Assembly: GCA_019637115.1 (NCBI GenBank)
Contig: JAHBWH010000014.1
Coordinates: forward strand, 1 to 64,000
Source: Myxococcales bacterium
GTDB taxonomy: Bacteria; Myxococcota_A; Polyangia; Polyangiales; Houyiibacteriaceae
Direction of reading: 5' to 3'
DNA length: 64,000 nt
A model generated the notes under the pieces. It was not told the origin of the DNA. It saw only the letters and a list, made by a program, of their open reading frames with translations, and did no database searches. A program made the position numbers and the translations under genes. Each line of letters opens with the position of its first letter. Positions within the stretch are counted from its first letter, which is position 1. This document shows positions 10,757-11,010 of the stretch, one piece after another.

Positions 10757-11010
10757 CGATCGAGACCGAGACCGAGACCGAGACCGAGACCGAGACCGAG
10801 ACCGAGACCGAGACCCGAGACCGAGACCGCGGCCGAGACCGAGACCCGAGACCGCGACCGCGACCGAGACCGAGACCGAGACCAAGGCGAGACCGAGGCG
10901 AGACCGAGACCGAGGCGAGACCGAGACCGAGGCCGAGACCGAGGCGAGACCGAGACCGAGACCTGAGACCGAGACCGAGACCGAGACCCGAGACCGCGAC
11001 CGCGACCGCA
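10757..11010. repeat. Long degenerate hexanucleotide array, (ACCGAG)n with ACCGCG and spacer variants
   Basis: About 250 bases consist almost wholly of GAGACC-phase hexamers. A run of eight near-perfect units at the start is followed by units broken by single-base insertions (GAGACCC), GCGACC units and GAGGCGAGACC blocks. The array begins about 10 bases after the stop codon of the HEXXH protein gene (10746) and ends about 70 bases before the RimK-like ATG (11082). On paper it encodes Arg/Asp/Glu dipeptide runs in several frames, but these are by-products of the repeat. Confidence 0.93.

Follow-up and report, generated by a model that had tools for sequence, protein, structure and literature searches.

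Arrays of degenerate six-base units stand close behind stop codons at four loci in a 64-kb stretch of a Myxococcales genome. Are such arrays functional parts of gene 3' ends, or does their position have another origin? The stretch (64,000 nucleotides, GC content 71%), here called the window, belongs to an assembly of 8.88 Mb in 434 contigs. An earlier note on it had suggested that the arrays might be hot spots for slippage, Rho or 3'-end processing sites, or binding arrays for a protein.

Hexanucleotide arrays in the window

The four arrays are real, and their coordinates in Tandem Repeats Finder (TRF) agree with the earlier note within a few bases. Its estimate that their near edges lie about 10–36 bases from a stop codon also holds, with measured gaps of 13, 15, 21 and 35 bp. 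Genes in the window were called with a hexamer-composition model trained on this genome. The arrays and the genes flanking the main one are as follows.

1853–1932, no strand assigned: hexamer array (TRF), GTCCGAGACCGAG... followed by TCCGCG/TCCGAG/TCCGGG variants; in a co-directional spacer, 13 bp beyond the stop of a PP2C-like phosphatase gene at 1945–3291, minus strand (Pfam)
10186–10746, plus strand: gene without Pfam match, directly upstream of the main array; its start call is uncertain, as a longer open reading frame begins at 9859
10761–11013, no strand assigned: main hexamer array, the longest in the window at 253 bp (TRF score 349, 85% matches); 15 bp past the stop at 10746 (plus strand) and ~70 bp ahead of the likely rimK start at 11082
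11082–11951, plus strand: RimK-like ATP-grasp gene, downstream of the main array (Pfam PF08443, E 4.9e-58; PF18030)
36417–36507, no strand assigned: hexamer array of CGGACCCCGACA/CGGACA units (TRF); 21 bp beyond the stop of an AAT-family acyltransferase gene at 36528–37661, minus strand (Pfam)
61399–61449, no strand assigned: hexamer array in two blocks, TCCGTT x4 and then TCCGGG x4 (TRF); 35 bp beyond the stop of a gene at 61484, minus strand

The main array consists of ~42 CGAGAC (equivalent to GAGACC) units with single-base slips. The genes adjoining the four arrays are ordinary by Pfam (PP2C-like phosphatase, RimK, AAT acyltransferase and M20 peptidase), and a search of the 64-kb window against Rfam gave no match. 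All four arrays lie in co-directional spacers, so that each one precedes the start of a further gene as well. Elsewhere in the window, the protein encoded at 12875–14911 carries TIGR02232, a cysteine-rich repeat of myxobacteria that hints at the phylum, and an EspA-like match was seen among the window proteins.

The window also holds other dispersed repeats. Element E1, with a core of ~93 bp and a length of up to 240 bp, is present as two inverted copies (44250–44482 and 30973–31199); BLAST finds 82 matches to it, spread over dozens of sites in this genome, and there are many copies in a genome of the same genus (G001). A second short repeat at 52750–52824, ~80% identical to part of E1, lies in the convergent spacer 52718–52825 and has 15 matches in this genome and more in G001.

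Position of arrays relative to stop and start codons

In 1.63 Mb sampled from this genome, we observed 130 hexamer arrays, mostly in spacers, which amounts to ~80 per Mb and ~1% of bases; the density is 72 per Mb in the part of the sample picked without regard to arrays. In the unbiased sample, arrays occupy 15 of 138 divergent, 9 of 137 convergent and 23 of 529 co-directional gene pairs. The strict preference for 3' ends that the earlier note had drawn from the window thus breaks down genome-wide, as arrays are present in 5' spacers as well. What survives is a weaker tendency towards stop codons: gaps of less than 40 bp are found in 29 of 65 cases to 3' ends and in only 5 of 73 to 5' ends, and the median gap is 56 bp to stops versus 124 bp to starts (p 7e-5), although the simple gene caller may misplace start codons and so blur 5' distances by tens of bases. 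When the arrays were slid uniformly within their own spacers, this asymmetry was never reproduced in 2000 trials.

The earlier note had further argued that simple repeats would not be expected to favour 3' ends. Other repeats of this genome contradict this, since they share the same bias. For tandem repeats of other periods, gaps below 40 bp number 40 of 81 to 3' ends versus 8 of 79 to 5' ends, with medians of 41 bp to stops and 139 bp to starts. In the sample, the dispersed element E1 lies less than 60 bp from the stop in 18 of 32 gaps, often by a few bases, and all of its gaps to starts are at least 50 bp. The 3' association was therefore rejected as a property of the arrays, and a bias common to unrelated repeats marks permissive DNA rather than an array-specific role at 3' ends.

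Orientation, predicted structure and termination signals

The earlier note's observation that array orientation varies relative to the upstream gene is borne out genome-wide. Co-directional cases in this genome split into 23 with a purine-rich and 22 with a pyrimidine-rich sense strand, and in G073, a distantly related genome of the same class but a different family, both GAGACC and GGTCTC are found after stops. This random orientation argues against a role as single-strand RNA. Predicted folding of GAGACC-type RNA shows no marked excess of structure over shuffled sequences (z −1.3 on the sense strand, +3.4 on the antisense strand), and among the window arrays predicted structure is unremarkable except at 36417–36507 (z −3.5).

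No intrinsic terminator, sought as a GC-rich hairpin plus T run on the sense strand, follows the window stops at any of the four arrays; the sole consensus match, at 61391–61410, is antisense to the neighbouring genes, and there is none near the other three. The mixed strand orientation likewise gives no sequence support for Rho-dependent termination. A conserved dispersed palindromic unit of the REP/BIME kind is absent, the units being direct repeats of many different hexamers. In these sequence data, no specific support was found for the roles in Rho-dependent termination, 3'-end processing or protein binding.

Convergent gene pairs in a distant relative

A 577-kb sample of G073, taken without selecting for arrays, presents a different distribution. 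Here arrays are found in 26% of convergent pairs (16 of 62), in 20 of 274 co-directional and in 5 of 65 divergent ones, far more often in convergent than in divergent pairs (p 0.008). The convergent-pair arrays mostly fill the spacer between both stop codons, with stop gaps mostly below 20 bp; over all arrays of the sample, most gaps to a stop are shorter than 15 bp. The median length of convergent spacers in G073 is 21 bp where no array is present; in those with an array, the sequence left after subtracting it has a median of 15.5 bp. Since these spacers are tiny without an array, one arising there necessarily adjoins both stops. Two observations in G073 nevertheless speak against free space as the whole account, namely the convergent-over-divergent excess and the 42 arrays that abut stops where 34.8 are expected under uniform sliding within spacers. 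On contig C8 (L139 and L152–L168), several array-free convergent spacers are small GC palindromes between the stops, for example CCGCGCAGCGCGG. The 3'-end idea finds its best support in G073, where the excess in convergent pairs keeps a functional reading alive.

Conservation and lineage distribution

Conservation was assessed in the readable 260 bp behind the stops of orthologues of the four upstream genes, that is, at gene ends rather than across whole spacers, and with one genome per species. At the orthologous 3' ends that were found, no counterpart of any window array is present in the same-genus G001 or in three members of the family (G006, G009 and G015). Behind the stop of its AAT gene, G009 has a different short GGGCAC run. 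Synteny of G001 with the window is largely lost.

Array abundance differs sharply between relatives. The pattern WCCGNGx4 has 2073 matches in this genome, versus 0 for the reversed control and 0–47 matches of the forward pattern in other sampled family members; GAGACCx3 has 176 overlapping matches. G073 has 2554 WCCGNGx4 matches, versus 1–129 in other sampled members of its genus (g67). Such a fall from thousands to few between congeners points to lineage-specific bursts. The reversed control, GNGCCWx4, is itself abundant (60–120 matches) in G002, G017, G018 and G315, where the forward pattern is absent; these other lineages seem to own a different hexamer type. In G035, gene calls are unreliable (56% coding) and array positions carry no weight.

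These distributions bear on the possibility that the arrays are orientation-independent gene-end elements. They might insulate or terminate transcription, as unstructured stretches on which Rho loads, or offer docking sites of a gyrase-like kind where supercoils between convergent genes are relieved, a role proposed for REP/BIME elements. The array-bearing convergent pairs of G073, most with nearly the whole spacer filled, are consistent with such a role, as are the distance that arrays keep from starts in both this genome and G073 and the modest predicted structure of GAGACC-type RNA. However, arrays are no rarer in divergent than in convergent pairs of this genome, array positions are not conserved in relatives, the 3' bias is common to unrelated repeats, and the window stops lack an intrinsic-terminator signature, the one match being antisense. 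Other sampled congeners of G073 also hold few such arrays, so that close relatives can do without any function the arrays may have. We consider a gene-end role unlikely, if worth keeping in mind.

Preference for six-base units

In an unbiased 1.32-Mb sample of this genome, spacers contain 115 runs of at least three exact copies at period 6, versus none in a third-order Markov copy. The corresponding numbers are 3 at period 5, 9 at period 7 and 6 at period 8, and in G073 they are 121 at period 6 and 0, 1 and 0 at periods 5, 7 and 8. Two-copy duplications outside arrays exhibit only mild enrichment (39 at period 6 versus 17–27 at periods 7–9). As these barely favour six, the choice of period is made as units multiply or as arrays are retained.

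Several candidate causes were rejected. Loss of mismatch repair does not account for period 6, as MutS_V is present in this genome, G073 and G035. A reading-frame filter does not either, since repeats with periods of 7–14, non-triplet ones included, coexist in the same genome and spacers have no frame. As for a telomerase-like reverse transcriptase, RVT_1 counts do not track array abundance, and no PF00078 reverse transcriptase was found in G035. A preference for six would not be expected from plain slippage, and neither MutS loss nor a frame constraint suffices to explain it.

A process specific to hexamers, such as templated repeat addition or protection by a repeat-binding protein with a 6-bp register, would fit the sharp period-6 specificity in two different families and the mild enrichment of two-copy duplications. 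The units, however, vary greatly within and between arrays, unlike the products of a single template, and genomes rich in arrays do not stand out in reverse-transcriptase genes, with none in G035 by PF00078. Such a process is highly improbable. In a broader form of the idea, some Myxococcota-like lineages would specifically amplify or retain 6-bp units, through hexamer-stepping machinery or a protein with a 6-bp register, giving hundreds of arrays per genome and, as in G073, separators between convergent genes; we regard this as speculative and distinctly unlikely.

Unit sequence and block structure

The earlier note had read all units with a CCGA or CGGA core. This core is not universal: the dominant unit contains CCG or CGG in 64 of 107 spacer arrays of this genome, versus 40% of background spacer hexamers, and ACGTCC and AGGGGC arrays, which lack the core, are frequent. 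Adjacent units are identical more often than in shuffled order, both in this genome (0.291 versus 0.222) and in G073 (0.371 versus 0.303), and the resulting block structure is directly visible in the array at 61399–61449. The arrays thus share two features of slipped-strand microsatellites, short head-to-tail units beyond chance and the block-like unit variants that local expansion would leave.

The arrays might also be G-quadruplex (G4) repeats akin to the GGGNATC heptamers of Xanthomonas and Nostoc, acting through G4 structure. Four G3+ runs separated by 1–7 bases (G3+N1-7 x4) occur on one strand in 35 of 107 spacer arrays of this genome, and the TCCGGGx4 block at 61399–61449 qualifies by eye. 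Most arrays lack the motif, which is found in 11 of 50 arrays in G073 and 0 of 25 in G035, and the 253-bp main array is made of GAGACC units without G-triplet runs. With the motif in a minority of arrays, G4 structure is disfavoured as a general basis, and its chance of explaining the arrays is very slim.

An artefact of short-read assembly is scarcely credible: although 10 of 58 sampled contig starts of this genome have an array within 300 bp, versus 1.4 expected, such breaks are what real repeats produce, most arrays lie inside contigs between unique flanks, their units are not the same from locus to locus, and the same array class is found in the separately assembled genus-mate and in distant relatives. 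Because arrays break the assembly of this genome, they are probably undercounted.

Comparison with known repeats

REP/BIME elements are repeated, intergenic, and common behind stops and between convergent genes, and they are palindromic dispersed elements. The present arrays resemble them in all but the last of these respects, being direct simple repeats without conserved palindromes. Ordinary bacterial microsatellites share with the arrays tandem units, block variants, lineage-specific abundance and intergenic location, whereas the present arrays are unusually dense and almost exclusively of period 6 in spacers. A tree-of-life survey reports stronger enrichment of hexanucleotide STRs in genes and coding sequence (PMC12699852).

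The closest precedents are heptamer arrays. The GGGNATC / GGGGA(C/T)T repeats of Xanthomonas and Nostoc (Rehm et al. 2015, PMC4692102) also form dispersed short tandem arrays that are mainly intergenic, occur in both orientations, and often lie less than 50 bp from a stop, the prominent ones being at different genes in related species. They differ in being G4-forming heptamers of one consensus, mostly with about four units, and scarce between divergent genes, whereas the present arrays comprise many hexamers in ~5–70 units, mostly without a G4 motif, and extend to divergent spacers. The depletion in divergent pairs is not seen in this genome (15 of 138 divergent versus 9 of 137 convergent pairs), while G073 favours convergent pairs. 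The TAACTGA direct repeats of Beggiatoaceae, Cyanobacteria and Bacteroidetes (MacGregor 2015, PMC4679880) are likewise abundant, short, intergenic and patchy in phylogenetic distribution, but they are a single fixed heptamer placed mostly right upstream of starts, whereas the present hexamers are many and avoid starts. Period, unit diversity and length thus set the present arrays apart from both precedents. Our literature search found no paper on hexanucleotide arrays in myxobacteria, which is not proof of their absence.

Discussion

Judged from sequence, the arrays are probably slippage-expanded hexanucleotide microsatellites, retained where neither promoters nor coding sequence keep them out, and they most likely have no dedicated 3'-end function. 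Short chance duplications in spacers would grow and shrink via slipped-strand replication, and point mutations would create unit variants that are then amplified as blocks, as the block structure suggests. The preference for six over five, seven or eight would be set during this expansion or during retention. Coding sequence and the ~40–100 bp before start codons (promoter, leader and ribosome site) would exclude arrays, and the DNA directly behind a stop codon would not. The apparent 3' association would then arise because free DNA lies behind stops, as the comparison with other repeats indicates, and lineage-specific expansion would leave positions unconserved, as seen for the four window arrays.

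Growth by strand slippage is suggested by the block structure, the lineage-specific bursts and an analogy with Myxococcus xanthus, in whose mutation-accumulation lines 27 of 39 fixed indels lay at simple tandem repeats (PMC11069108). Among the roles first proposed, hot spots for slippage is the one that fits the data.

Long simple repeats are usually scarce in bacterial genomes. Here, a single genome can hold hundreds of six-base arrays while its sampled relatives have few. What sets the unit length of bacterial microsatellites thereby becomes a testable question, with array-rich and array-poor sister species at hand. The arrays also give reason for caution, as the free space of compact genomes can mimic an association of repeats with 3' ends.
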